Positions 644 through 46,117 of a DNA stretch of 46,117 nucleotides are shown here, piece by piece (position 1 is the stretch's first letter; each line of letters starts with the position of its first letter). The DNA lies in the NCBI GenBank assembly GCA_021209225.1, contig JAJOIW010000023.1:1-46117 (forward strand), given 5' to 3'. The translations under genes and the position numbers were made by a program. Origin of the DNA: Verrucomicrobiota bacterium (lineage in GTDB: Bacteria; Verrucomicrobiota; Verrucomicrobiia; Limisphaerales; JAJOIW01). The notes beneath the pieces were generated by a model, which saw nothing but the letters and a program-made list of their open reading frames with translations, was not told where the DNA came from and did no database searches.

Positions 644-669
644 GCTTATTTTCCGAGCTTATTTTCCGA
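644..669. repeat. Tandem 13-bp duplication at the rho stop codon
   Basis: The 13-base unit GCTTATTTTCCGA occurs twice back to back (644-656 and 657-669). A shorter related stretch lies just upstream at 631-642. On the minus strand the unit contains the last rho codons and the TAA stop, so the duplication repeats the end of the gene after the stop. Confidence 0.8.
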
Positions 670-2274
670 GGCTGAGGAGGAATTCTATATTATTGCGGGT
701 GCGTTTCAGTTTATTCAGGAGGAGTTCCATGGATTCGACGGCGGGGACACCGGTTAATGCGCGTCTCAGGATGACCACCTTATCATATTCATCTGGATGA
801 TAGAGGAGTTCCTCTTTGCGTGTTCCTGAGTGTTCCACATTGATGGATGGGAAGATACGGCGATCCACCAGAGAGCGATCCAGGTGCACTTCCATATTTC
901 CTGTTCCTTTGAATTCCTCGAATATCACCTCATCCATCCGGGAGCCTGTATCTATCAGTGCGGTGGCAATAATGGTCAGTGATCCGCCTTCTTCGATATT
1001 TCGAGCGGCACCAAAGAATCTTTTTGGTTTATGTAAGGCATTGGCGTCCACACCTCCGGAGAGGATTTTCCCGAGTGAGGTTGAACGGTGTTGTATGCGC
1101 GGGCGAGTCGGGTGATCGAATCCAGAAGGATGATGACATCCTTTTTATGTTCCACCATGCGTTTCGCTTTTTCGATGACCATTTCGGCGACCTGGATGTG
1201 TCTTTCGGGCGGTTCGTCGAACGTCGAGCTGACCACCTCAGCAGGTTTACAGGTGCGCTCCATATCGGTGACTTCCTCGGGTCGTTCGTCGATGAGGAGG
1301 ATAAAGAGATAACAATCCGGGCTGTTTTTAACGATGGAATTAGCCAGGTTCTGCATGAGAACAGTTTTCCCTGTGCGTGGTGGGGCCACAATCAACCCGC
1401 GGGTTCCTTTCCCGATGGGACACACGAGGTCGAGGACTCTCGCTGAAAGATCTCCTGGACCCGTTTCCAACAGAAATCTCTCGTTGGGGAAGAGTGGGGT
1501 GAGGTTGTCAAAATGAGTCTTGTCTTTGGCTTTCTCCGGGTCCTCTTTATCGACGGCCTCAACCTTGAGAAGGGCAAAAAACCGCTCCTTCTCTTTTGGG
1601 GGGCGAATCTGCCCGGCCACCAGGTCCCCAGTTTGCAGATCAAATCGGCGGATCTGCGAGGGGGAGACGTAGACATCCTCCGGACAAGGCAGGTAGTTAA
1701 AGCTTTGTGAGCGGAGAAATCCAAAGCCCTCAGGCAGAATTTCCAGCACACCTTCGGCGAACAAGGTGCCCTTGCGTTCGGCATTTTTCTGAAGGATCGC
1801 AAAGATCACCTCGTGTTTTTTCATGGTGCCGAAGTTCTGGATGCCGAGGTCTTTGGCAATTTCATTGAGCTCAGTGATCCCCATGCTCTGGAGGGCTGAG
1901 ATATTGACAGTGCGGGGATCTCCAAGATCCGTTGGCTCCATTTGCTGCGCCTTCTCGATTTCCTCAGGGTCTTCGGAGGGCAAGGATTGAGCGAGGACAG
2001 GCGAGGCAGCAGGCTCATCCACTTTGGTTTCGTGCTTCGCATCATCGTGGTTCTCAAGTGGCAGCATATCGCTGTCGTCACGTGATTTCCGGGCGGTTTT
2101 TTTGCGTGCAGCTTTCTTTGAAGCAGCTGGTGGGGTGGTGCCCGAAGTGGAATTCGAGAATGCCTTGGATGACTTAAGTGGCAATTCCTCGTCATGGTCC
2201 TCAACAGGAGTTTTTGAGGCAGATTTTTTGGTAACAGTTTTGCGTTTAACTGTCTTAGTCGTAGTTTTCGGCAT
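659..2274 (-). CDS. rho: Transcription termination factor Rho (one-base frameshift)
   Basis: Rho is a hexameric RNA-dependent ATPase that terminates transcription. From the chosen ATG at 2274 (MPKTTTK) the protein has a long Lys/Ser/Glu-rich N-terminal extension (about 120 residues), a Rho N-terminal helical domain ([10 protein letters not shown]), an RNA-binding cold-shock-like domain ([23 protein letters not shown]), then the ATPase core with Walker A (APPRTGKT), Walker B ([15 protein letters not shown]), the Q-loop (GGVDANAL) and the R-loop/C-terminal segment ([12 protein letters not shown]). The frame breaks at the T4 run at 1066-1069 (A4 on the coding strand). One extra A restores [13 protein letters not shown] and gives 538 residues ending LLSLGK. 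Because both halves are fully conserved, I read this as an intact gene with a sequence error. The low-complexity N-terminal extension is common in Rho of Bacteroidota and Verrucomicrobiota. It lies 125 bases downstream of the glyA fusion gene on the same strand. Confidence 0.95.
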
Positions 2275-2399: not shown

Positions 2400-4541
2400 T
2401 CAATAAGGTAATGGGAATTTGTATGTCAGGTCGTGGACACGCTTGAGAACCTCCGATTGAACCTGCGCGTTCTTAATATCCGCGAGCACCTCGGAAATCA
2501 TGTCGGCAATGGCAAACATCTCGTGTTCTTTCATGCCGCGGGTTGTCACTGCCGGGGAGCCGATACGGATACCACTGGCCTTGAACGGGGAGAGGGTTTC
2601 GAAAGGGATGGTATTTTTATTGAGGGTGATACCCGCCATATCCAGAGCGATCTGGCAGTCTTTTCCTGTGAGGCCTTTTTGATTCACGTCGACGAGGAGA
2701 AGGTGGTTGTCTGTTCCACCGCTGACCAATCTGAAACCATTTTTCTGAAGACCGCTGGCCAGCGCGGAGGCGTTTTTCCGCACCTGAGCCTGGTATTCGC
2801 GGAAGGAAGTCTGAGCCGCCTCATGAAAGCATACGGCTTTGGCTGCGATCACGTGTTCCAGAGGTCCACCCTGTATTCCCGGGAAAACCTTTGAATCGAT
2901 GGCTTTGGCGTATTCCTTGCGGCAGAGGATCAATCCTCCGCGCGGGCCGCGAAGGGTCTTGTGGGTGGTCGTGGTGACGAAGTCTGCGTGATGGATTGGC
3001 GAGGGATGTTCTCCTGCCGCCACCAGTCCGGCAATGTGGGCAATGTCCGCCAGCAGCAAAGCGCCGATCTCGCGGGCGATCTCTCCCATTCTGGCAAAAT
3101 CAATTTGTCTGGGGTAAGCACTGGCTCCCACTGTGATCATTTTGGGTTTGTGTTCGCGGGCCATTTCCGCAAGCTGGTCGTAATCGATGCGCTCATCATC
3201 CTGGCGCACGCCATAATGAATGACATCGTAAAAGATTCCGGAGAAGTTCGCGGCATTTCCATGGGTGAGGTGACCCCCGTGTGAGAGGTCCATGGTGAGG
3301 ATTTTATCGTTTGGATTGAGGAAGGCGAAATAGACTGCCATGTTGGCGGAGCTTCCCGAATGGGGTTGGACGTTGGCGTGTTCAGCGCCGAATAACGCTT
3401 TGGCTCTTTCGATGGCGAGAGATTCGATTTCATCGATGAATTCGCATCCGCCGTACCATCGTTTTGATGGGTATCCCTCCGCGTATTTATTGGTGAGCAC
3501 GGATCCTTGGACAGCCATGACTGCGGGGCTGGTGAAGTTCTCACTGGCGATCAATTCGATGTGATGTTGCTGGCGAAGACGTTCCTTTTCAATGCTGGTG
3601 GCAATTTCCGGATCGACGGAGGCAACCAGTGTGTCGGCAAATTTATTAATGCGCCTATGGTGCCGGTCTCCCTCGAATTCCGCGGTTAAAAACGTATCCA
3701 CGATCTGGAGTGCGGTTTGAGTATCGGTGAATGCCTGAGCGAGACAAAGGACGTTGGCGTCATTGTGTTGCCGGCAGAGAGCCGCAACCTGGACATTGGT
3801 AACCAGGGCGGCGCGAATTCCTGGCACTTTATTTGCGGCGATACTCATTCCAACGCCGCTGTTGCACACGAGAATGCCCCTCGAAACATCCCGATTCCGG
3901 ATATGGCGGGTCACCACATTGGAAAAATCCGGGTAATCCGTTGATGTGGCATTGTGGGTTCCTGCATCAATCACTTCAAATCCTTTGGACGAAAGATGGG
4001 ATTTGATGGATTCTTTGAGTTGGAATCCGGCGTGATCTGAGCCAATAGCAATTTTGTTGGAAGGGGCTTCCTGCATCGAGAATGAAGATTGAAGTTCGTT
4101 AATTATAGAATGGATTCCCTGGTTTATCTGGTCCCGACAATAGCGGTAAACCTCGAGTGAACCACCAATCGGGTCCAGGATCTCCTTTTCGTCGGATTCC
4201 ACGTTTTTGTCAAACTCTCTGACTAAAAATATTTTTTCCGATGCATCCGGGAAATAATGCTGCATGGCCATGACATGATTCCAGGTCATACCAAAGATGA
4301 GATCCGCCTCCTGCACCATAGATCGGGTGAGGTGGGAACTTCTTTGTGAAGTGATGTCGACGCCGATTTCCCGGGTGGCTTCAACCGCATTGAGCGATGG
4401 GGGTTGGCCATCCAGGGCATCAATACCGGCTGAGCGAACCCGGAATTTCTGACCCAGGCTGGCCATTGCCTTTTTAAAGAGTCCTTCCGCCATGGGACTG
4501 CGGCAGACATTTCCGGTGCACACAAATAAGATGGTCTTCAT
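2400..4541 (-). CDS. glyA: Three-domain fusion: LMW phosphatase - RpiB - serine hydroxymethyltransferase
   Basis: One uninterrupted 713-residue frame carries three enzymes. Residues 1-150 are a low-molecular-weight protein phosphatase with the P-loop CTGNVCRS (nucleophile C8, R14) and the general acid D123 in DPIGG. The P-loop has Val where the arginine phosphatase YwlE has Thr, which favours phosphotyrosine specificity (inference). Residues about 162-298 are ribose-5-phosphate isomerase B: GSDHAGF, base C226, GMSIAANK, and the HNDAN motif at 259-263. Residues about 303-713 are PLP-dependent SHMT, which makes glycine and methylene-tetrahydrofolate from serine: [17 protein letters not shown], and the PLP lysine K528 in TTTTHK. 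In Bacillus ywlE, rpiB (ywlF) and glyA are separate neighbouring genes in that order, so this fusion mirrors known synteny. An internal Met near residue 155 could start RpiB independently, but there is no stop between the domains. Confidence 0.93.
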
Positions 4542-4648: not shown

Positions 4649-5710
4649 TCATCGCTGACGCAGTTGTTTGATGAACCGGATGCCTTTAAGAAAATCAATT
4701 CCACGGGCCAGAATGGGATCGTTTATGGTTTTACTGGTCACTTCACCGGATGCGGTATCTGACGTTTTGAGCAGATCGGCATCGGGACTCAGGTCTCCGG
4801 CGGCTCGGGCATTTTGCTGGTTCTTCAACCGCACCAGATCGGATTCGTTCATCGCTCTCCGCTGGGAATCGGTTTCTGACTCAGAAAAAAATGGGTTGTC
4901 CATGTGGATTTTCTGGATACTGATGGGGGCGTCTATGGCAATATCCGGCTGGATCCCATTTTGGGACAGAATGAATCCATCGGCCATTTTCACCGGGCTG
5001 CGGGCCACTTCAATCGTGCCTCCTCCATCCAGTTCGAATCGTTCAAAATAGAATGTTTGGCCACTGCTTTTCTGGCCGATGACGATGGCTTTTTTGATTT
5101 GTTTGAGGGATGCTGCGGCGAGTTCGGCGGCTCTGGATGTTTCGGTATTGACCAGGACAGCCAGGGGCAGTTGGTTGACGGATTCGGAGGGTTTAGATTG
5201 AAAATCCTCTCCTTTCATCGAGAACAGGGGAGTGGATTCGCCATGGAACAAGCCAATGACCGACGGCACACACTCGTAGCCCTGTCCCTCAGCAAATCGC
5301 AGATCCAGAATAATTCCTTCCAGGGGTTTGAGGTTATTTTGAGAATTTTCTATGGCATTGCGTATTTCAGAATCGGCGCCGGATTCGATTCCGGCGAGCT
5401 GGAGGTAGATGAATGATTCCTCCAAAACCTCAGATTTCCGCAACGAGAGGAGATGGTCCGGTGATTTCTCCGTGTCGGGTTTGGGGTGGACATGAATCAC
5501 CTGGCCATCCAGTTCTTTCAGCAGGCCCCGGACGGCTGCCGCGTCAACGGATTCATGGTCAAATTGATATAAATTCTTCTCCAGCAAATGCAGGAGATTC
5601 TGGAAACGGTTTAACTCAGCGGCTCGCCCACCAGGCAGCATGGCAAGGCAGCCCAGCCCTGCGGCCACGCATAAAACCCGAATGATTCTTGAATTTGTCA
5701 TACACAACAT
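4649..5710 (-). CDS. Exported S41-family (CtpA/Tsp-like) protein lacking the catalytic dyad
   Basis: This 353-residue protein has an N-terminal signal peptide (hydrophobic stretch to about residue 30, GGRAAEL). Its C-terminal half has the S41 protease fold signature: GIILDLR near 133, LAVLVNTETSRAAEL, KAIVIGQKSSG and NGIQPDIAID near 251. In active C-terminal processing proteases the nucleophile Ser lies three residues before a conserved Glu (S-x-x-E) and a Lys follows in FGKG. Here the Ser position is R193 and the Lys position is Q218, so I predict a pseudoprotease. S192 or K214 could substitute only with a shifted register. No PDZ domain is evident; residues 30-130 replace it. ATG at 5710 has a G-rich stretch about 10 bases upstream; ATG at 5701 is an alternative. 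It follows purD by 21 bases, so the two are probably cotranscribed. Confidence 0.75.
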   Translation of the reverse strand: MLCMTNSRIIRVLCVAAGLGCLAMLPGGRAAELNRFQNLLHLLEKNLYQFDHESVDAAAVRGLLKELDGQVIHVHPKPDTEKSPDHLLSLRKSEVLEESFIYLQLAGIESGADSEIRNAIENSQNNLKPLEGIILDLRFAEGQGYECVPSVIGLFHGESTPLFSMKGEDFQSKPSESVNQLPLAVLVNTETSRAAELAAASLKQIKKAIVIGQKSSGQTFYFERFELDGGGTIEVARSPVKMADGFILSQNGIQPDIAIDAPISIQKIHMDNPFFSESETDSQRRAMNESDLVRLKNQQNARAAGDLSPDADLLKTSDTASGEVTSKTINDPILARGIDFLKGIRFIKQLRQR

Positions 5711-5731
5711 AATTATTTGCCCCCATTCCTT

Positions 5732-7046
5732 TCAGGAAATTGAATGATGATACCCGGCAAAAGCCTTGGCTGCAATATCCCGGCGAAAGAATGCCCCTTG
5801 GAAATGGATTTGGTCGACGGCCTGATAGGCGAGATTTCTGGCGGCTTCGAGGGAATGATCGAGAGCGGTGACCCCCAGGACGCGTCCTCCGCTTGTCACG
5901 AGGTTCCCCGAGGAAGTCTCCAGTGCCAGCATGGAAAACTTTAATTCCCGGGATTGCTTCCGCTGCTTCAATTCCGGTGATGGTTCTGCCTTTTTCATAG
6001 GGGCCCGGGTATCCTCCGGAAGCCATCACCACACAGACAGCGGATTTTGTGGACCATTGCAGTTTGTGCTCCCCCAGAGTTCCATCCACGCAGGCCTCCA
6101 TCAGGTCGACCAGGTCATTTTCCAGTCGGGGCAGGTAGATCTGGGTCTCCGGATCCCCAAAGCGGGAATTAAACTCAATCACCTTTGGTCCTGATTTTGT
6201 CAGAATAATTCCCGGGTATATCAGCCCCTTGTACCGGATGCCTTCCAGCCGGCAGCCTTTTATCCATGGGTCCAGAATCGAAGCGGCGGCATCCTGAAAT
6301 GCCTTCTCAGACATGAACGGTGTGGGTGAATAGGTTCCCATGCCTCCAGTATTCGGCCCCAGGTCTCCATCATAGGCAGGTTTGTGGTCCTGTGAGGATG
6401 GGAATGCGAGCCACCGATCCCCATCACACAAGGCATGGATCGACATTTCAAGCCCATCCAGTCTTTCCTGAAGCACCACCCGGTCTCCCGCATCCCCCAG
6501 GGATTTACCCACCATCATGGATTGAATCGCCGATTCAGCCTCAGGCATCGAATGACACACCACCACCCCCTTGCCAAGTGCCAGTCCGTCCGCTTTAACC
6601 GCAACATTTCCATCAAACAGACTGGCAAATCCGATTGCTTCATCCACGGACTGGCACACACGCGATTGAGCCGTCGGAATGCCATGGCGATCCATGAAGT
6701 GTTGGGAAAACCCCTTACTCCACTCGAACCGGGCTGCCGCTTTCGTTGGTCCCCATGCGCGAAAGCCATTGGCCTCGAATGCATCAACCATTCCCGCAGC
6801 CAACGGATCATCCGGGGCAACCACAGTCAAATCCGGCTGAAATTCCATCGCCAACTCCAGCATGCCGGCCACGTCAGTCGCCCTCAACTTCTCACATCGC
6901 ACCGGCACCCCGGATGATTGAACAACTTCTCCAGCCATCCCCCCATTCCCAGGTGCGCAGACGATCTCATGAACGCGTGGCGATCGGGCAATTTTCCAGG
7001 TCAAAGCATGCTCACGCCCGCCACTTCCAATTATCAACACTCTCAT
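5732..7046 (-). CDS. purD: Phosphoribosylamine-glycine ligase (one-base frameshift)
   Basis: GARS joins phosphoribosylamine and glycine with ATP in step 2 of purine synthesis. The protein opens with MRVLIIGSGGREHAL and has the ATP-grasp features VAVKADGLALGKGVVV, LGPNTGGMGTYSP and IEFNSRFGDPETQ. The frame breaks after KVFHAGT. The C-terminal segment LVTSGGRVLGVTA is in another frame. Removing one C from the CC pair at 5920-5921 (G on the coding strand) rejoins the frames with exactly the family spacing between HAGT and LVT, giving 437 residues, normal for PurD. I therefore treat the frameshift as a probable one-base insertion error. It is the first gene of the leftward group purD, S41-like protein, phosphatase/rpiB/glyA fusion, rho. 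SHMT in that group supplies the glycine and one-carbon units that purine synthesis uses. Confidence 0.94.
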
Positions 7047-33767: not shown

Positions 33768-35195
33768 TTAATCTGAATAACCAAAGGTTTTCTTATCTTT
33801 GATCATTTTGACCACCAGCTCTGGAACCATCAGCTCCCAGGATTCATCTTTTTCAGCGATTTTCTGCAGCACATCCCGGGAAAAGTGTGGAAGGCATGAC
33901 TCATCAATATCACGTAATCCCTGAATATACTGGTTTTCCACCAGATATGAATAGAGGTGGCGGAGATTTGGTGCCACACGAAGATTTCCAGCCGTGATCA
34001 GTGATCCTGAGATGGTCCCTAACTGAGGGTAGATGTACAACTTCAAATCATTTTTAAACAGGCGGCCAAAAGATTCCAAAATGCCTCCATCGAGATCCGT
34101 ATAATATTTAGGTTCGAAAATCTCGCGTAATGAAGGAACACCCATCACAATGCCTATCATTTTTTTTGTATGCTGAAACAGGTATGCAGCCAGTCGGTGG
34201 TAGGTGCCAAAGTTGGATATCATCACGTTATGTCCAAGTGCATTCAGCATGTCCGCCCGATGCAGAAAATCAGCATGGTCAATTGAGCCGGAATTGGACA
34301 GATTATTGAGAGTCATTTCCATCAGGACTTCCACCGGTTCTCCTTCCACTGAAGGCTCCTGGATAAATTGGGACTTGGCCGATCGGATCATATCCATGGT
34401 GGCTTTGGTCATTGGCCTGAAACTTCCCCGTTCAATCAGGATGGCTTTTTTATATAAAAGTTCGGCTGGCTGGACCACGAGACCCGAAGAGGAGAAGGTG
34501 GCTGCATTCGTCAGTCCATTTTCCACCAGTTGCAGAGCCATCAATCGGTTGTCGATATCTGGAAAATCTGGCCCGCTGAATTGGATCAGGTCCACCTCCA
34601 CCCTTTTGGTGGATAGGTTGTCCAGCAGTCCCCGAATCACTTTGGATGGCCTGTCGGAATGATAGAGTGCGCCGTAGATCAGGTTGACGCCCATGACTCC
34701 GAGAGCTTCCTGTTGTTGAAGGTTGGTATTATCCCACATGATGACATGCAGGATGATGGTCGATGGCTCATTGCCCGGTTTGCTCTGGAATCGAATGCCC
34801 ATCCATCCGTGGCTGTTGTCATTGGCCATATAGCTCCGGGCCTTGACTGTGTCCGCAAAGCAGAAAAACTGCGTATCTGCCCCTCGTGAATTCTTAAGTC
34901 TCTCGAGCATGAGTCCATATTCATGTTCGATCATATTCTCAAGGCGCTCAATGCTCACATAGCGTTTAGCTGGTCCGTAAATGGAGTCCGAGACAGTCAT
35001 ATCGTATGCTGACATCGTTTTAGCCACTGTCCCAGCTGCCCCACCCACGCGGAAAAAGTTCCTGGCGACCTCCTGCCCCGCTCCTATTTCGGCAAACACT
35101 CCATATTTTGACGGGTCCAGATTGATGCGGAGTGCCTTTTCCCGCGTGTCGACTTTTTCAATCTCCAATTGATTTTCCATAATCCCGATATCCAT
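33768..35195 (-). CDS. Conserved protein of unknown function (about 475 residues)
   Basis: I recognise this as belonging to a long, well-conserved family found in Bacteroidota, Spirochaetota and Verrucomicrobiota. Databases sometimes mislabel it as a TonB-dependent receptor, but no function is known to me. The ATG at 35195 is chosen because GGGAG lies eight bases upstream; other in-frame starts lie at 35219 and (TTG) 35261. The N-terminal block INLDPSKYGVFAEIGAGQEVARNFFRVGGAAGTVAKT (residues about 24-60; seen here as AEIGAGQEVARNFF and GGAAGTVAKT) is very conserved. There is no signal peptide or membrane helix, so it is cytoplasmic. The middle has HSDRPSKVIRGLLDNLSTKR and VVQPAELLYKKAILIERG. 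It contains no Walker, Rossmann or protease motif I can name. It is a single gene, convergent with addA. Confidence 0.6.
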   Translation of the reverse strand: MDIGIMENQLEIEKVDTREKALRINLDPSKYGVFAEIGAGQEVARNFFRVGGAAGTVAKTMSAYDMTVSDSIYGPAKRYVSIERLENMIEHEYGLMLERLKNSRGADTQFFCFADTVKARSYMANDNSHGWMGIRFQSKPGNEPSTIILHVIMWDNTNLQQQEALGVMGVNLIYGALYHSDRPSKVIRGLLDNLSTKRVEVDLIQFSGPDFPDIDNRLMALQLVENGLTNAATFSSSGLVVQPAELLYKKAILIERGSFRPMTKATMDMIRSAKSQFIQEPSVEGEPVEVLMEMTLNNLSNSGSIDHADFLHRADMLNALGHNVMISNFGTYHRLAAYLFQHTKKMIGIVMGVPSLREIFEPKYYTDLDGGILESFGRLFKNDLKLYIYPQLGTISGSLITAGNLRVAPNLRHLYSYLVENQYIQGLRDIDESCLPHFSRDVLQKIAEKDESWELMVPELVVKMIKDKKTFGYSD

Positions 35196-35345
35196 TATTT
35201 CATCTCCCGAAGTGATCATGCGGTCTGTCTGGTCGTTGGCTTGAAGCCAGAAGTAGTTCAACTGCCATATTATTAAGGTTGTGAGTCATCCTTAACCACC
35301 ACCATCGTTTACTTTACCTCGCGGACATGTTCAAAAAGAAAATTT

Positions 35346-37241: not shown

Positions 37242-37801
37242 TCGCAGCCATTCAACCCGGAAGTGAGCCGCACTCCCGGATCTCCGTGAAACTGAACAAT
37301 CTCCGCATTAACCGGATGCTGGGCCTGTTGCGCGCTTTTTTTCAAACCTTCCAGACCGATGATCAGTTTCCCCAAAACGCCACTCATCCGGCCATTCGCC
37401 CAATATCCTGGTTTCAGATACGAGCCCCGGAAATCTTCCTCCTTGCCTGAAACTGGTGAATCATTGGCAGGCTCTCTTATTTCTACTCATTGCCGTTCTG
37501 AAATTTCCTTTGACTCAACCTTCCAGCTCCCAGTCAGTTGTATGAATCCCAAGTCCATCCACACCATGGATTCCACTGACCCAGACTGATGGCCGCTCCG
37601 AACCGGCATCAGGACCTGACCAAATATCCCAAAACCCGGAAATCGGCGTTTACTAATAACGTTGGAGTCTAATTTCTGGACAAATCCCTCTCCCAACCAC
37701 AGGTCCCAGCCAATAAAACCGGATATTTTAGGTAAATGGGTCATGCCGAAATCCGACTTTAACCTAGTAAATAAAAGATTCAATTGGGACATGTCGAACA
37801 G
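37242..37801. other. 560-base region upstream of the Pel operon
   Basis: No gene is convincing here. Short frames on the plus strand (to 37589) and a minus-strand frame ending at 37487 that would run into pelA show no recognised family. No c-di-GMP riboswitch core was seen, and no -24/-12 or strong -35/-10 promoter could be named. It must carry the pel promoter unless pelA is read through from the hydrolase gene. It could also hold a decayed gene. Confidence 0.45.
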
Positions 37802-40642
37802 ATGCGAAACATCATAATCAGATTGCTGACCATATCCACATTCCTGGGAAACTTGGGAGCTGAACCATTTTACGTCAATTACAGCAAGGTATTTGATGTT
37901 GAGGAGCTTTCGCGATACAACGTGGCGATCGTCAGTCCAGACGCCGTCTTGTCGGAAGCGGACATTCGCCGTTCCGGCACCAGAATATTCGCCTACCTCA
38001 GTATTGGAGAAGTGGCTTCGGATGCTCCTTACCGACTGGAGGTGGAGAAACTGGGCTTGAACATGCAGGCCAAAAATCAGACATGGGGCTCTGCCATTAT
38101 GGATCCATCTGATCAAAAATGGCGCAAATACCTTGTCGATTCCCTGGCTGTTGCTATCGCATCCAAAGGCTTCTCCGGATTTTTTCTGGACACAGTGGAT
38201 TCATATCAGTTTCTCACTCAAGGTTCGGAGACCCGGAAACAACAATTGGAGGCGGGTGTCGTCGAAATCATTAAAGACTTGAAACGAAATTTTCCTCAAA
38301 TGGACATCCTCCTCAACAGAGGTTTTGACATCTGTCAGCAAGTGACTGAGGAAATCTCAGGCGTGCTGGCTGAAAGCCTCTTTTATACATACAATTTTTC
38401 CACCAAAAAATACGGCCCCACATCAAAATACGACCAGGATTGGCTGTTGGACAAACTCCTGACCATACAGAAATGTGGAACTCCGGTATATATCATTGAT
38501 TATGCTCTCCCGGATCATAGAAATGAAATACAAAATCTCTATGATCAATATGAAAGACACGGTTTCAACTTATGTGTCACAAACGTGGAAATAAATGGAA
38601 TTCTCACTCAACCCAGATCTCTGGAGGCTCGACATGTATTCACCGTTTTTGGAAGTAAATCCTCCAATCCAGCCGAGTCTGTACACTGGCCATCCGATTC
38701 ATTAACTGCCTCCACTATTCAAATGCCCGGCGAATACCTTGGTTTGGAATTTTCTTTCCACAATATCGCTCAGGATGGAATTCCAGAGCCTCTCAACTCA
38801 AATTATAAAGCAGTTATCGTAGACGCCAACCTACAGGTTCCACCAGAACTGGAACAAAACTTTCTCAATTGGCTCCTCCAGGAAAAAAACAAAGGTCGCA
38901 AGATAGTTTTTTGGGGCCAGATTCCATTTTCAAATCCCTCAGTTAAAAGCCTGTTCCTGGATGCTTTCCAGATCCAGGGCACCGGAGAATTCAAATCCAA
39001 TGTGAAAGAAGTAAAATTGCTCGATGCCTCAGAGGATTTTTACTTTGAATCCAAATCCATTCCCGCAGTATACGAATTCATCGACCTTCGAGCACCCATC
39101 GGAAGCACAATCGTTTTATCTTACCTGGGAAAAATGGAGGAAGGATCAAGTATTGAGTTTCATCCAATATTCTATACAGATTGGGGTGCCTTTGCTTACG
39201 TGAATAAATCCATTTTCAAGATTGGTGATGAAATGCACTCATGGTGTATCAACCCATTTCAGTTGATTCAAAATGCCATGAACCTGCCAAATTGGCCTAT
39301 ACCGGACACCACATCCCGCAATGGACTGAGAATACTATATTCACACATTGATGGAGATGGATTTGGAAATCTCTCCGCCGTAACTCCGGGTCATAGATCA
39401 TCTGAAGTCATATTGGACAAAATAATAAACAGATACCCTTACCAGTTTACCAGTTCGATCATTGAAGCAGAAATTCGAGGTCTTATCGAAGGCCAAGATA
39501 AACAGGACATGGACGAACTGATCTCCATAGCAAGAAAAGTATTCAATACAACAAATGTTGAAGCGGCCTCCCACACATTTTCCCACCCATTCTACTGGAA
39601 AAAGGAAGATGGAATCACCGCGGATTATGCTTCTCAGACTCTTCCTTTGAAAACCTCCACCGGTTATACAGAAATAGACCTGTGGAAGGAAATCCACGCT
39701 CCCATCCGGTTTATGGAAGACTTTCTCCTGCCTGAAAACAAGAAAGTTAAAATGATCCTATGGTCAGGCAATTGTATGATTCCAGAGGAGGCCATTCGAA
39801 TGGCCCAATCTCTGGCAATTCAAAATATGAATGGTGGTGAAACGACCATTTCAAGAAGCCACCCATCATTGCTGAAAGTAGCACCAAAATGTCGTGAAAT
39901 CAAAGGTCAACTGCAGATTCATAGTTCTATCCAAAGTGATAACGTCTACCGGCAATTTTATAAAATGAACGGTATTATCCCCACAGCTTATCATTCCGGA
40001 TTTGAAAATGTGCTGCAAACTTTCAGATACACTGAATCACCCAGAAGACTGAAGCCTGTGAATGTTTACTTTCATTGGTTCAGTGGAGACAACTGGGCAT
40101 CACTGAAAGCGGTCGAAACAGTATTGGATTGGTGCCAGAACCGGAATTTGTCGGCCATATCCGCATCACATTATGCTCAGATTATTGAAGATTCAAGAAA
40201 AACAAAAATATATCAACCCAATAGTGACACTTGGATCATCACTAACAATGGAACATGCCGCACTTTCCGACTGGAAACTGGAAGTCAGCTGCCAGACATC
40301 AAGGAATCAGAAAACGTGATTGGATATAACCATGTTAATGGCAAACTATACATTCAGCTGGGAGCACTTCAGAGAACAGTGATAAGACTGGTCTCACGTC
40401 CTGAACAATATCCGTACCTCGAATACTCGACCGGGAATTTTGAATTAATTAAGCGTCAGAAAAATAAAATGATATTCCAGGTCAGCAATCTCACAAAAAA
40501 CAGGATCAAGACATCAGGTTGGGCGCCAGGCATACGAATTACAGTGCAGGTTAATGGAGATGAGTATATTCAAACCACTGATCCCGATGGCTCACTTGAA
40601 ATGACAGTACCAGATCATGCTGAAATCTCCATTCAACAATAA
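37802..40642 (+). CDS. pelA: PelA-like dual glycoside hydrolase / polysaccharide deacetylase
   Basis: PelA trims and deacetylates the Pel polysaccharide (rich in partly acetylated galactosamine) in the periplasm. From ATG 37802 it has 946 residues, matching the 948 of Pseudomonas PelA. It has a signal peptide (cleavage about NLGA-E at 20-21). Residues about 22-260 are the GH114/GH166-type barrel: FAYLSIGEVA, FFLDTVDSYQF (D130), LLNRGFDI and AESLFYTYNF, with E191 aligning to the catalytic Glu of PelA. Residues about 300-500 form the linking domain. From about 507 comes the deacetylase: H515-I-D517-G-D519 and SHTFSH (H591, H595), the metal-binding Asp-His-His set. A C-terminal beta-rich part follows. 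The TTG at 37784 could add six residues but would spoil the signal. pelB begins four bases after its stop. Confidence 0.9.
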   Translation: MRNIIIRLLTISTFLGNLGAEPFYVNYSKVFDVEELSRYNVAIVSPDAVLSEADIRRSGTRIFAYLSIGEVASDAPYRLEVEKLGLNMQAKNQTWGSAIMDPSDQKWRKYLVDSLAVAIASKGFSGFFLDTVDSYQFLTQGSETRKQQLEAGVVEIIKDLKRNFPQMDILLNRGFDICQQVTEEISGVLAESLFYTYNFSTKKYGPTSKYDQDWLLDKLLTIQKCGTPVYIIDYALPDHRNEIQNLYDQYERHGFNLCVTNVEINGILTQPRSLEARHVFTVFGSKSSNPAESVHWPSDSLTASTIQMPGEYLGLEFSFHNIAQDGIPEPLNSNYKAVIVDANLQVPPELEQNFLNWLLQEKNKGRKIVFWGQIPFSNPSVKSLFLDAFQIQGTGEFKSNVKEVKLLDASEDFYFESKSIPAVYEFIDLRAPIGSTIVLSYLGKMEEGSSIEFHPIFYTDWGAFAYVNKSIFKIGDEMHSWCINPFQLIQNAMNLPNWPIPDTTSRNGLRILYSHIDGDGFGNLSAVTPGHRSSEVILDKIINRYPYQFTSSIIEAEIRGLIEGQDKQDMDELISIARKVFNTTNVEAASHTFSHPFYWKKEDGITADYASQTLPLKTSTGYTEIDLWKEIHAPIRFMEDFLLPENKKVKMILWSGNCMIPEEAIRMAQSLAIQNMNGGETTISRSHPSLLKVAPKCREIKGQLQIHSSIQSDNVYRQFYKMNGIIPTAYHSGFENVLQTFRYTESPRRLKPVNVYFHWFSGDNWASLKAVETVLDWCQNRNLSAISASHYAQIIEDSRKTKIYQPNSDTWIITNNGTCRTFRLETGSQLPDIKESENVIGYNHVNGKLYIQLGALQRTVIRLVSRPEQYPYLEYSTGNFELIKRQKNKMIFQVSNLTKNRIKTSGWAPGIRITVQVNGDEYIQTTDPDGSLEMTVPDHAEISIQQ

Positions 40643-40646
40643 ATAT

Positions 40647-42737
40647 ATGAAAGAAACACAGGAAAAATTTCATATTATAAAGCCGGTAAGACTGGTTGGG
40701 CTTATAGCGGCGGTAATCGTATTTCTTTACGTGATAGTACCCTCAAATAAACGCACACTGAACAACGCCCTTGAGGACGGTAACCTGAATGTGGCAGATG
40801 ACGTACTCCATAAAATATCAGAATCTGAGAAACAAAGTGACCCTTTTTACTCTGATAAGGAATTTCAGTTGCTCTTGGCGAAGACATATTCCTCAGTGAA
40901 TGCGAACATCACTGAGGCTGTGCCGACTATCATTGAACAATACAGAAAAAGCAATAAAACTGAGAAAGAAACTATACATACAATCAAGCTGATACGTGCA
41001 GCAGGTCTGCCAGAAAAGGCAGTTCCTATACTGTCTGAATATGAATCTCATTCAGGAAAATCCAACGCTGATCACTCCTCTGAGTTTCTGGAGATCAAAG
41101 TGGTGGTTCTACAGGAAAACAACTTAACATCCTCAGCATTCGATGCGTATCACCAATACTTTAATCAACTCGACACGTTCTCCAAGAATGAGCTTTTCAA
41201 GTTAATCGATCTGGCAAGAGCAGGAAACCGACTCCTGGATGTGGCTGAATTGTCCACAAATAAAATTCTTCTCCAAAATCTTAATAAGGAGGATATAAAC
41301 GATGCGGAAATATATGAAAAACTTGGTAATGTCGCACTGGCAGTGGGGAATAATGATGCAGCCATTAATCACTTCCTGTATTCAATACAATGCGACAACA
41401 CAAAAAATTATCTCCATGCTGAAATTGGAAAAGCCTATGAATGGTCAAACAGACCCGAAACTGCTTTTGAGCACTATATAAAATCTCTCGGGAACAATGA
41501 CAATTACGCTATCGAGCGCTTGTTGGACTTAGCTCAGGGATTGTATAAGACAAAAGATTTAGGACAAGTTCTGGAAAAATTTCCGGATAAAATTCTAAAA
41601 TTGGATAAAGGATTATTTCTTGCCCGTGTTTATATTGAAACAGGTGAACGGCAAAACGCCTACGCATGGTACGAAAAACTCTGCGATTCAGAATCCGCGG
41701 ATGTATCTATTTTTCTGGAATACATAACTATCAGACTTGCCGGTCAGGAATATGAGGAAGCTGTCAGAATAGCAACCAGAGGTCTGGAAAAATTCCCGGA
41801 AGAAATTCATTTCCATGAACTGATTGCTGAAATACTGCTCAACTCACTGCAATATGAAAAAGCTTTCCAGAAATATTACGCGCTCGTTTCCCGTGACCTG
41901 AATCATAATGCCCTCGGTAAAACAATTGACCTTGGAATTGCGCTCGGAAAAGAAAATGATATTACAGATCTCCTGAAAATGCATCGGGCAGCAGGAACAC
42001 TTAAGTCTCCATTTTTATACGAATTGCTGGCCATGAGTGAATTTCGCCATGGCAATTACAAAGCATTCCAGTCCATCATCGAAGAAGGAATAAATCAGAA
42101 CCCATCCAACCATGTCCTCAAGGAAAAACTTATTATCAGTTTCCAGAAACTAGGAAATACCGAGGCTGCTGTAAAGATGATAGAAGATAATCAGAATGAA
42201 TTGTTAAACAACCAGTACATATTGAATTTCTATGTTGATTACCTTCTCAATAATAACAATATTTTAAAAGCTGATAAAATCATCACTGAATTTCCCAGAG
42301 AAGAGAGTAAAAACAATCTGCAGGAGAAATCATTCAAAGATCTCTTCCGGGCCAGAATTGCCACAATTAAGAAAGATTACCCTGAAGCCCTGAGAATATA
42401 CAATGAACTGGAGAGTCAGAATATGCTTCTGGACTATCATTTGATTTCGTTCCTTGAAATTGCCGTGATAGTCAATGACTGGTCACTGGCCAATAAACTA
42501 ATTGATAAAATGTCTGGTATTGACCACGAGGACTATTATGTCCATGCATCCAGGGCTTGCTTATACCAGGGAAACGACACCAGAGCATTAAATTACCTCT
42601 CGCGTGTCACCACTCCAAATAAACTGGCTCACCTATGGAGGGATTTTGGAGATTATTATGAGAATGCTGGAAATAAAAACCAATCAAAATTGGCATACAG
42701 CAAAAGCCTTAAATATTTAGGATTAGAGATTTACTGA
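40647..42737 (+). CDS. pelB: PelB-like N-terminal half: membrane-anchored TPR scaffold
   Basis: A 696-residue protein (ATG 40647, four bases after pelA; 40617 is a less likely overlapping start). A single membrane helix (about 15-35, LVGLIAAVIVFLYVIVP) is followed by roughly 650 residues of helical hairpin repeats. TPR-like motifs include YEKLGNVALAVGNNDAAINHFLYS, AEIGKAYEWSNRPETAFEHY and LRIYNELESQNML (cited by their ends only at 41320-41390, 41415-41475 and 42385-42425). In Pseudomonas a single 1193-residue PelB has an N-terminal helix, 19 TPRs that bind PelA, and a C-terminal outer-membrane barrel. Here the helix and TPRs form a separate protein and the barrel is in the next gene. It is predicted to sit on the periplasmic face of the inner membrane and bridge to the exporter. 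Assignment rests on architecture and operon order; sequence identity is likely low. Confidence 0.75.
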   Translation: MKETQEKFHIIKPVRLVGLIAAVIVFLYVIVPSNKRTLNNALEDGNLNVADDVLHKISESEKQSDPFYSDKEFQLLLAKTYSSVNANITEAVPTIIEQYRKSNKTEKETIHTIKLIRAAGLPEKAVPILSEYESHSGKSNADHSSEFLEIKVVVLQENNLTSSAFDAYHQYFNQLDTFSKNELFKLIDLARAGNRLLDVAELSTNKILLQNLNKEDINDAEIYEKLGNVALAVGNNDAAINHFLYSIQCDNTKNYLHAEIGKAYEWSNRPETAFEHYIKSLGNNDNYAIERLLDLAQGLYKTKDLGQVLEKFPDKILKLDKGLFLARVYIETGERQNAYAWYEKLCDSESADVSIFLEYITIRLAGQEYEEAVRIATRGLEKFPEEIHFHELIAEILLNSLQYEKAFQKYYALVSRDLNHNALGKTIDLGIALGKENDITDLLKMHRAAGTLKSPFLYELLAMSEFRHGNYKAFQSIIEEGINQNPSNHVLKEKLIISFQKLGNTEAAVKMIEDNQNELLNNQYILNFYVDYLLNNNNILKADKIITEFPREESKNNLQEKSFKDLFRARIATIKKDYPEALRIYNELESQNMLLDYHLISFLEIAVIVNDWSLANKLIDKMSGIDHEDYYVHASRACLYQGNDTRALNYLSRVTTPNKLAHLWRDFGDYYENAGNKNQSKLAYSKSLKYLGLEIY

Positions 42738-42759
42738 ACAATTTATTGAATAAACGACA

Positions 42760-44346
42760 ATGAGAACGAGAAGTTTATTAGGAAAACTGGGTTGTGCCAT
42801 TGGTTTGTGTGTCATGGTTGATGGGGTGGCTCAGATTTCCTATGAATCCTACAGCGACCTCGACAGCCTGAGATACGAAATTGGGCAGCAGTTGGAGGCT
42901 GCCCAATCCACTGGTCAGGTCAAAAGTTATGATGATCTGAGCCTCGATACTCTGCGATTATTACTCTATTTGCATGCCAAACTCGGCAATACGGAAAAAG
43001 CCAATGAGGTAAGCGAAGCGGTTTTCAGAAAATCTCCAGATGATAAGCAGGCATTGTTTGCTCTATTGTCCATGAATCTGGAAAGTCAGCAGAAGGATGA
43101 AGTCCTGAGATTGGCCCAAAAACTCAACTCCATGTATCCAGAAGATGGCCAGGTTAAGTACTACCTTGGTCAGGCTTATTACATGAATGGATTTTATAAG
43201 GAGGCCAATTCAATTCTGAGTGAACTTCCAGATTACCAGTTTGAAAATAAACTTTATCCTCAAGAGTTTGACATTGCTGAAAAGGCGTTCATGGGAAGTG
43301 AATGGGCCTATGCTGCCAATATGATATTAAAAGGGTTGGAAGCAGGTGATGGAAGCCTGAGCTTTGACGTGGACTTTGAGCAGAAAGAAAGACTCCAACT
43401 TATTTTTGCCAAAAGACTCGGTCATATCGGGGCGGGTGCTATAGCAAAACTCTTTAACCAGGGCAATGTCTTCGTGACAAAAGCGAATGGGGGACAAGCA
43501 TTGAATGATCGCTATAAAATATATGGAGAGTTTGAGGTTCCCCATATCCAATTGGATGGAACCAGTCTATGGCGTGATTCATCCAGGACATTTGTTCAGG
43601 GGATAATTGGATTGAATTATAATCGAAACAATTGGGATGCGAATTTTCATGCTGGAGCTCATCAGGATGGTGGTATATTCGGTGGCAGTTTCGCAAAAAA
43701 TTTCGACTATGGAAAATCTGTCAGTATCGATGGATTCTATGGCCGGCGGTCCGAGGACACTCTGTTGTTGGAGAGACTGAATGCACGGACGAATGGTGCT
43801 GGAATTTTCGGACAATACTCATTCGATGACAAGTATAAGTCGTATGTCAATGGAAGAATTGAAGGCCGCAACATTGATGTGGACGGTGAAGACTTGTCAA
43901 CAGCTTTTGGTTTATATCTTAATGCTGACCGATTGATCAGCACAAACATCACACAGCTGCGTGGAGGATATCGGGCAAACTACATCACCTATTCCAGCGT
44001 GAATGCCTCCAGTGACGTGATACAGGAAATTGCTTTACCTGGACTGACTCAAACGCAAAGAGGCGAGATATTGTCCAATTCACTGCCGGAGGCGATCCAT
44101 AGACACGGACTGTTCCTGAGTTGGAAAGACTATGTCAACGGTGATTTCAGTTATCATGGTATTGTCGGATACGATTATGACTTTGAACAATCCAGTGGAC
44201 TCTATTATGTCTCCGCCGGATTAGCATACTATATTAACGATAAGTCAAGAATCTCCGCAGATCTGGGTTATTTCAGTGATCCAAGCCTGGGACAGGCAGG
44301 GTCCGATCTTTGGCAGGCACTTGTCTCGTTCCAAATGGGGTTATAA
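42760..44346 (+). CDS. pelB2: PelB-like C-terminal half: outer-membrane barrel with TPRs
   Basis: A 528-residue protein 22 bases after the TPR gene. It has its own signal peptide (LGCAIGLCVMVDGVAQ, cleavage about 25-26). Residues about 45-190 carry TPR repeats (LLLYLHAKLGNTEKANEV, QVKYYLGQAYYMNGFYKEA). Residues about 230-528 show alternating amphipathic strands with many Tyr, Phe and Gly (NRNNWDANFHAGAHQDGG, YFSDPSLGQAGSD), and the last residue pattern VSFQMGL is a typical barrel-end strand. This fits the secretin-like export barrel of PelB (about 880-1193 in Pseudomonas). Summed with the preceding gene the two halves give 1224 residues, close to 1193. The symbol is provisional. No pelC lies between this gene and pelD. 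Confidence 0.75.
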   Translation: MRTRSLLGKLGCAIGLCVMVDGVAQISYESYSDLDSLRYEIGQQLEAAQSTGQVKSYDDLSLDTLRLLLYLHAKLGNTEKANEVSEAVFRKSPDDKQALFALLSMNLESQQKDEVLRLAQKLNSMYPEDGQVKYYLGQAYYMNGFYKEANSILSELPDYQFENKLYPQEFDIAEKAFMGSEWAYAANMILKGLEAGDGSLSFDVDFEQKERLQLIFAKRLGHIGAGAIAKLFNQGNVFVTKANGGQALNDRYKIYGEFEVPHIQLDGTSLWRDSSRTFVQGIIGLNYNRNNWDANFHAGAHQDGGIFGGSFAKNFDYGKSVSIDGFYGRRSEDTLLLERLNARTNGAGIFGQYSFDDKYKSYVNGRIEGRNIDVDGEDLSTAFGLYLNADRLISTNITQLRGGYRANYITYSSVNASSDVIQEIALPGLTQTQRGEILSNSLPEAIHRHGLFLSWKDYVNGDFSYHGIVGYDYDFEQSSGLYYVSAGLAYYINDKSRISADLGYFSDPSLGQAGSDLWQALVSFQMGL

Positions 44347-44379
44347 TACTGGAGTATAAATCAAAAAAACATTTTCACT

Positions 44380-45746
44380 ATGAATAGCAGTCGATCGAGA
44401 AAGTGGTATGAACCCCAGAATGCGTACTGGGATATAGCCGTTATTTTTACAATATTGGCGATCATCAATTTTGTCCTGCGTCCAAAGGATATTGGCATGA
44501 CGCAGATCAATCCATCCCCATATATTCTTCTGCCAGTCCTTATTGGATGTCGATATGGATTTGTCGAAGCCATTAAATCCTGTTTAGTTGTCATTCTCGG
44601 ACATATAATCATTCTGTATGTAACTGAAAAAGCTTCTCTCAGCGATCTTATATACGAACATGGTTTTTTTTTATGCCGGATTGGTTTTTTTTTGGTGGGG
44701 TATGTGGTGAAGTGCACGCATTTTTCATGACTCAGGAAACTGAAATCAAACTCATAAATGACAGACTTGTATCGCGCCATACCTCACTGGAGGAGGTAGT
44801 GTATGAATTAAATCAGATCAAGAAGAAGTTCGAGGAGGAACTGGTTTCTTATGGAAGTGAGACAGCCAGTCTCGACATGGCTCTGCGACGATTGATGGAA
44901 TGCGAAAAAGAGTCCATATACGCTGAGATTTTGAGACTTTTCAACCGGTTTTATGATGTGCAGACAGCGGGCATATACTTGCAGGACAGTTTAAAAACTA
45001 TCAGGAGACAGGCATATATTGGAAGTGATGATGGTTTAACAGAAATAATAAACCTGGATGACGATCTGCTGGCAAGAAAATGCCTTGCAACCAATTGTCC
45101 TGTTTCCATTAAGACATTCAGCGATCTTGATGTGTCACAAATTCATCATCTAGTCGCTTTGCCTGTTTCGACATCATCCAATGAAGCCTCTGGTGTCATC
45201 TTCATAAATGCCATGCCTTTCAACAGGCTCACTGAAGCGAGCGTGGAGGGAATGGAATTGCTGGCTCATTGGGCATCGCGGGCACTTGAGGTCCACCATG
45301 AACGTTGGCTGGTCGAAATGGTGGGTGATCAACGCGTCGATTATAAAGTCATCTCAAATGAAGCATTTTCTGACATCATTCATATAGCCAAACGAACATC
45401 TTCGTCTTACCAGATACCATCATTCATGGTATTACTATATGCCAATGGAGCGGATAAAAACATTGAAGAACAACTCAAAAACAGATTTTTGCCACAAATA
45501 AGGCGCGGAGACTTTGTGACTACCCTGGATCTTCCTTTCAGTAACATAGCCGTGTTATTGCCAGTTGCTGGGAGAAGATCCGTTGAAATATTCCTGGATA
45601 GAATGAACGAAGTGATTTCCTCCAACCCTCAACTTACTGGAAAAATCAGAAACATCACTAAAATTGTAGATGAACATTTTGATCTGATGCAATTCCAATT
45701 GGAAGTCAAAAACATTGGCAACAGGAGAGATAATGCGCTGGTCTAA
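44380..45746 (+). CDS. pelD: PelD-like c-di-GMP receptor (frameshifted)
   Basis: PelD is the inner-membrane c-di-GMP receptor that activates Pel synthesis. The N-terminal 105 residues hold about four hydrophobic segments (DIAVIFTILAIINFVL, YILLPVLIGC, LVVILGHIIILYV, GFFLCRIGFFL). A coiled region follows (TQETEIKLINDRL), then a GAF-type domain (about 165-305; DVQTAGIYLQDS, VALPVST) and a degenerate GGDEF-like domain with the I-site R-R-G-D at 45501-45512. The frame breaks between two nine-T runs (44664-44672 and 44685-44693). One added T rejoins the frames and yields 455 residues, equal to Pseudomonas PelD. The shift is either a read error or reversible slippage. The start at ATG 44380 follows an A/T-rich leader without a clear ribosome site. 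Confidence 0.82.
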
Positions 45747-46117
45747 CTTTTATCTTGCCACTTTGCTGGATATAGTTTCAATAACTATATTATGGAATCC
45801 CGAAAGCAGTCTCATCACTGGTTTAATTGCTCTCGGCATACACATTTTGGCTGTTGTGTCCACTTATTACTTTTTCAAGCCTTTGGCTCCCTCGATAGCT
45901 GGAGTTTATCCAATTCAGTTTCCAGTCATGATTATAGGTTTATGTGGTGCCTTGCCTTTGGTAGGATTATTAGTAATTACTTATTTCGGCATACTGTTCA
46001 AACCGCGGCCAGGTCTGGAGTTGGAAGATAAGCATTTGCGGGTGTATACGAAAGGTATATATCAAATACGTCTGGAAAATCTTAAAAAGCATAAGGTACC
46101 TGATCCGATTATCAAGG
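45733..46117 (+). CDS. pelE: PelE-like membrane protein (5-prime part, runs off the window)
   Basis: ATG 45733 lies 14 bases inside the end of pelD and follows a good ribosome site (AGGAG). The frame stays open through the last base, giving 128 residues. There are about four hydrophobic segments (SNFYLATLLDIV, LITGLIALGIHILAVVS, PVMIIGLCGALPLVGLL and the stretch near 78-92), then a charged soluble start (RPGLELEDKHLRVYTKG). PelE in Pseudomonas has N-terminal membrane helices with a proline-containing pair (FFIPVLG-like; here GALPLVG), then TPRs. Coupling to pelD and operon order support the call. The assignment is by context and topology, as the TPR part lies outside the window. Confidence 0.65.
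   Translation, partial: MRWSNFYLATLLDIVSITILWNPESSLITGLIALGIHILAVVSTYYFFKPLAPSIAGVYPIQFPVMIIGLCGALPLVGLLVITYFGILFKPRPGLELEDKHLRVYTKGIYQIRLENLKKHKVPDPIIK

Follow-up and report, generated by a model that had tools for sequence, protein, structure and literature searches.

In Pseudomonas and other bacteria, the pel gene set serves to produce Pel, a sticky sugar of biofilms, and to carry it out of the cell. Does the end of a contig from an uncultured member of the Verrucomicrobiota encode this system, and in what does it differ from the Pseudomonas arrangement? The stretch analyzed here (the window) is a whole contig of 46117 bp (G000:C218), so that no extension is possible; the contig belongs to a genome bin that is 57.7% complete. 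In its final 8.3 kb, pelA, pelB1, pelB2, pelD and the beginning of pelE follow one another on the plus strand. A first-pass annotation, made from the sequence alone, had claimed pelA, two pelB halves, pelD and a pelE-like gene, and all of these were found on the same strand and in that order. We consider it very likely that the locus is a chromosomal pel operon of which the contig holds the 5′ part (pelA-pelB1-pelB2-pelD-pelE′), with pelF and pelG lost at the contig end. Its features are the following.

37802-40642, plus strand: pelA, encoding a secreted protein of 946 aa with GH166-type alpha-1,4-N-acetylgalactosaminidase and CE21-type de-N-acetylase domains, as predicted from homology and fold
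40617-42737, plus strand: pelB1, 706 aa, the N-terminal half of PelB, a TPR superhelix with a hydrophobic segment at the N-terminus
42760-44346, plus strand: pelB2, 528 aa, the C-terminal half of PelB, with TPRs and an outer-membrane beta-barrel
44347-44379: gap of about 34 bp between pelB2 and pelD, without the pelC that relatives have at this place
44380-45746, plus strand: pelD, with a membrane segment in frame 1 (44380-44730) and a GAF plus degenerate GGDEF c-di-GMP receptor in frame 2 (44673-45746)
44664-44672 and 44685-44693, plus strand: two T9 runs at the pelD frame break, the sole homopolymers of at least nine in the window
45736-46117, plus strand: 5′ part of pelE, with an approximate start codon, cut by the contig end at 46117

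Elsewhere the contig is ordinary chromosome, carrying rho, a protein combining LMW-phosphatase, RpiB and SHMT, purD, gyrase/topoisomerase IV subunits, a cbb3-type oxidase and a nuclease/helicase pair. The combined protein (2403-4541, minus strand) is a single chain of 713 aa that fuses low-molecular-weight phosphatase, RpiB and serine hydroxymethyltransferase; it found near end-to-end matches in 19 of the 20 genomes searched, its own included, and a match from RpiB onwards in the remaining one. A protein of 497 aa (33768-35261, minus strand) showed no Pfam match at E ≤ 1, and its NCBIfam matches were weak and far below cut-off. No Rfam element reached the gathering score within the 46117-bp window, and a 16S sequence was not found in the bin.

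PelA was compared with solved structures at the level of both sequence and fold. Residues 32-874 matched the solved PelA 9cgy by phmmer (E = 4.2e-98), and a further match was obtained with 5tcb, the hydrolase domain from P. aeruginosa (E = 3.7e-27). The AlphaFold2 model, built from eight sequences, reached a mean pLDDT of 76, and its best PDB match by Foldseek was 9cgy (943 columns, E = 1.3e-61); the GH166 and deacetylase folds that the first-pass annotation had proposed are thus not missing from the 946-residue protein. D130 and E191 align with D160 and E218 of P. aeruginosa PelA (PaPelA), and 5tsy, an E218A variant, has an A in the alignment column of E191. For the deacetylase domain, residues have been assigned as base activator, base, metal ligands and acid (PMC12022489); counted by hand along the phmmer alignment against these residues, H515/D517/D519 of the window protein correspond to H515/D517/D519 of PtPelA, H591/H595 to H589/H593 and H758 to H750. 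The catalytic residues named at first pass (E191, D130 and the deacetylase site) are accordingly kept in the alignment to PaPelA and PtPelA. A second-shell, supporting residue, E723 of PaPelA, is replaced by D713. One of the features of Pel membership, a PelA in which both the hydrolase and the de-N-acetylase domain keep their catalytic residues, is therefore present. An alternative start codon for the gene is a TTG at 37784.

The PelB TPR scaffold and outer-membrane barrel, another such feature, are present as two proteins. pelB1 gave TPR family matches and 530 bits with its own profile after iteration, and it occupies the same position in relatives. The pelB2 product, which was aligned with pelB2 from ten relatives, yielded an AF2 model with a pLDDT of 82, and the top Foldseek match of this model was PelB of the PelBC complex (9h80_M, TM-score (target) 0.75), followed by BcsC. 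Both halves proposed earlier were recovered by profile, and the barrel half also by fold. Profile comparison showed the two-protein PelB to be general across Verrucomicrobiota loci, and for other bacteria a divided pelB has been described (PMC7112194).

PelC is an outer-membrane lipoprotein, a hallmark of Gram-negative Pel and essential in Pseudomonas (PMC12141448). Within the window the best score of a PelC profile was 3.5 bits, which is noise, versus 130-190 bits in relatives at the pelB2-pelD position, and the profile had no match elsewhere in the 57.7%-complete bin. In the contiguous same-order operons seen (L036, L035, L153 and L154), pelC always lies between pelB2 and pelD; the same-order locus L145 has the order C-D-E-F-G, and the single-contig genome G597 carries pelA-B1-B2-C-D-E plus PelG. 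In genomes of the same-order family f27 (L039-L046, L146-L152, L155), pelA-B1-B2 are found together, while pelG, and in most of them pelC too, lie at separate loci. Because pelC is dispersed in f27, its absence from the operon is no proof of absence from the genome, and the pelC of this organism may lie elsewhere.

By profile, no PelC was found in several genomes of the phylum that do have PelA, PelB and PelG. One of these is the 99%-complete G560, whose pel genes include a pelFG pair as well as two pelA-like genes (L176, L177). A fusion of PelC to either PelB half in Verrucomicrobiota without detectable PelC was rejected by hhalign, for which the control worked; a divergent PelC that escapes detection is possible. 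We tentatively suggest that a Verrucomicrobiota branch, possibly including this organism, might export Pel without a PelC ring, with PelB made as a TPR protein plus a separate TPR-barrel porin. The operon without pelC and the several genomes lacking a profile-detectable PelC would also suit a Pel-like locus that makes a different polysaccharide, or a Pel polymer with PelC-independent export. However, the hydrolase and deacetylase residues of PelA are those of Pel, and with an incomplete bin and a distant pelC in most f27 genomes the gene may simply lie outside the contig, and we regard this alternative as unlikely. We read the locus as a real Pel operon cut short by the contig end, and as a largely expected addition to a known system.

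The pelD of relatives is a single intact gene of 453-463 aa, to which both window frames align. A PelD profile, built from window frame 2 and Verrucomicrobiota relatives only, matched the PDB PelD (E = 1.7e-16), and R277xxD280 and R310 stand at the places of R367xxD370 and R402 of P. aeruginosa, where they bind c-di-GMP. The RxxD motif and the distal arginine, a third feature of Pel membership, are thus present as residues, with the frame interrupted upstream of them. The pelD claimed at first pass was recovered by profile but is not one ORF, the interruption falling at the two T9 runs. These are 21 bp apart, and a -1 shift at either would restore a PelD of 455 aa.

As the only two homopolymers of this length in 46 kb, located precisely at the break, the runs could suggest a switchable pelD, phase-variable or slippage-decoded, in which they toggle the c-di-GMP receptor and hence Pel; a predicted stem just 3′ of the second run (z = -1.8) did not reach significance. 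However, pelD reads through in the relatives inspected, and two further genes on the contig are broken as well. Both rho (976-2313 and 659-1051, minus strand) and purD (5616-7046, minus strand) are interrupted by a single-base homopolymer change, the homopolymers altered being AAAA and GGGG, which points to indel errors in the assembly. Because rho and purD are broken alike on the same contig, the most likely cause of the pelD break is a homopolymer error of assembly or sequencing. This is the simpler explanation; a programmed frameshift or phase variation was accordingly rejected as the leading reading of pelD, and we consider a switch very improbable.

The frame break and the missing pelC could also reflect a decaying or inactivated locus, with a true frameshift in pelD, pelC lost and the machine no longer made. 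Such decay is seen in the same order: G036 has a clearly broken pelA (L012:8201-10503), with most of the deacetylase domain gone, and its pelG, which lies on a different contig, is broken as well. Nevertheless, pelA, pelB1 and pelB2 of the window are long and intact and keep their active-site residues, and the 1-nt breaks in rho and purD argue for sequencing error rather than decay, which we therefore hold to be improbable here. The first-pass annotation was thus right in calling a Pel operon and overlooked both the interruption of pelD and the lack of pelC.

The pelE fragment was identified among the window ORFs by a pelE profile (E = 1.7e-7); its N-terminal part is what the contig holds, and it begins before pelD has ended, an arrangement that relatives share. 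Since the contig stops inside pelE, pelF and pelG are not visible at the locus. Both had been predicted to follow at first pass, and we likewise predict them downstream of pelE: same-order relatives carry them, but the 57.7%-complete bin yielded no match to PelG and none above cut-off to PelF. PelG matched above cut-off in 15/15 other PelA-bearing same-order genomes tested, the match being fragmentary in G036 and in G048, whose PelA match is itself weak.

A scan of genome contigs for PelA gave no matches with a single PelA sequence and did so with a PelA alignment. PelA was found at E ≤ 1e-25 in 15 of 320 same-order genomes and, in an even sample of the phylum, at 1e-40 in 10 of 388, some of these matches being partial (own genome counted in both). 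Dozens of Verrucomicrobiota pel loci were found in total. The entire pelA-B1-B2-C-D-E-F-G operon occurs at the same-order locus L036 and is spread over contigs in G084 and G119. In the PelA tree, Verrucomicrobiota are separate from Pseudomonadota with a support of 100, and the window PelA forms a long branch (1.34) inside the Verrucomicrobiota group, its nearest sequence in the tree set being another Verrucomicrobiota PelA at 37%. A recent transfer of PelA from Pseudomonadota finds no support in this tree. Within the Verrucomicrobiota group, three rows carry a Pseudomonadota label; they come from genomes of the window's order, and the submitter labels look wrong. L079, L050 and L052, labelled Klebsiella pneumoniae or Proteobacteria, correspond to genomes of the window's order and carry a window-type pelA; these labels are apparently wrong. 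Most of the named same-order contigs bear the label Verrucomicrobia, Verrucomicrobiales or Limisphaerales, which makes the assignment to the phylum sound, and the Verrucomicrobiota origin proposed at first pass is supported by these contigs and the PelA tree. The novelty for the phylum implied there was overstated, as many Verrucomicrobiota genomes carry pel loci, and publications had already described PelA homologues of full length in this phylum (PMC12022489) and a divided pelB in other bacteria (PMC7112194). A detailed description of a Verrucomicrobiota pel operon was not found in the literature searched.

In comparison to pelABCDEFG of Pseudomonas, the window shares the order A-B-(C)-D-E, the domain order and catalytic residues of PelA, the barrel fold of PelB and the c-di-GMP site of PelD. 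It differs in that PelB is two proteins, pelC is absent between B and D, the PelA sequence is distant, and pelF and pelG are out of view, the contig ending first. The same-order operons L036/L068 (JAIPJX010000047) and L035/L048 (JAQBVM010000015) share with it the split PelB, the gene order and a PelA that is 36-37% identical; unlike the window, they have an intact pelD, with pelC lying between it and pelB2, and L036 also has pelF and pelG. L061 (CAMBPV010000028, labelled as a Prosthecobacter debontii MAG) resembles the window in its split PelB and in lacking pelC, with the order A-B1-B2-D-E-F-G, whereas its PelB2 has 903 aa with extra TPRs and its PelD is without the RxxD motif that the window has.

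Gene order, homology, the folds of PelA and PelB2, the catalytic and c-di-GMP residues and the co-occurrence of PelG in relatives are observed features of the Pel system. Points against a Pel operon are the bin without PelG, PelC and an over-threshold PelF, the pelD that does not read through, the pelC missing from its usual place, the long branch of PelA and the exchange of E723 for D713. By homology with characterized systems, the machine is predicted to be active and its polymer to be Pel. PelF, encoded outside the contig, would polymerize a GalNAc-type polysaccharide in the cytoplasm, PelD, PelE and PelG would pass it across the inner membrane, and c-di-GMP bound at the RxxD site of PelD would turn the machine on. 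In the periplasm, PelA would trim and partially de-N-acetylate the chain, which would leave the cell via the two-protein PelB, a TPR scaffold plus a porin of TPRs and barrel.

The locus is thus an ordinary member of the Pel family, and the PelC-less side branch is mildly interesting. Whether the PelC ring is dispensable could be tested in those Verrucomicrobiota that hold PelA, PelB and PelG and in which no PelC is detected. For Pel itself, studied mainly in Pseudomonas and Bacillus, the Verrucomicrobiota add an old, separately evolving branch with a two-piece PelB.
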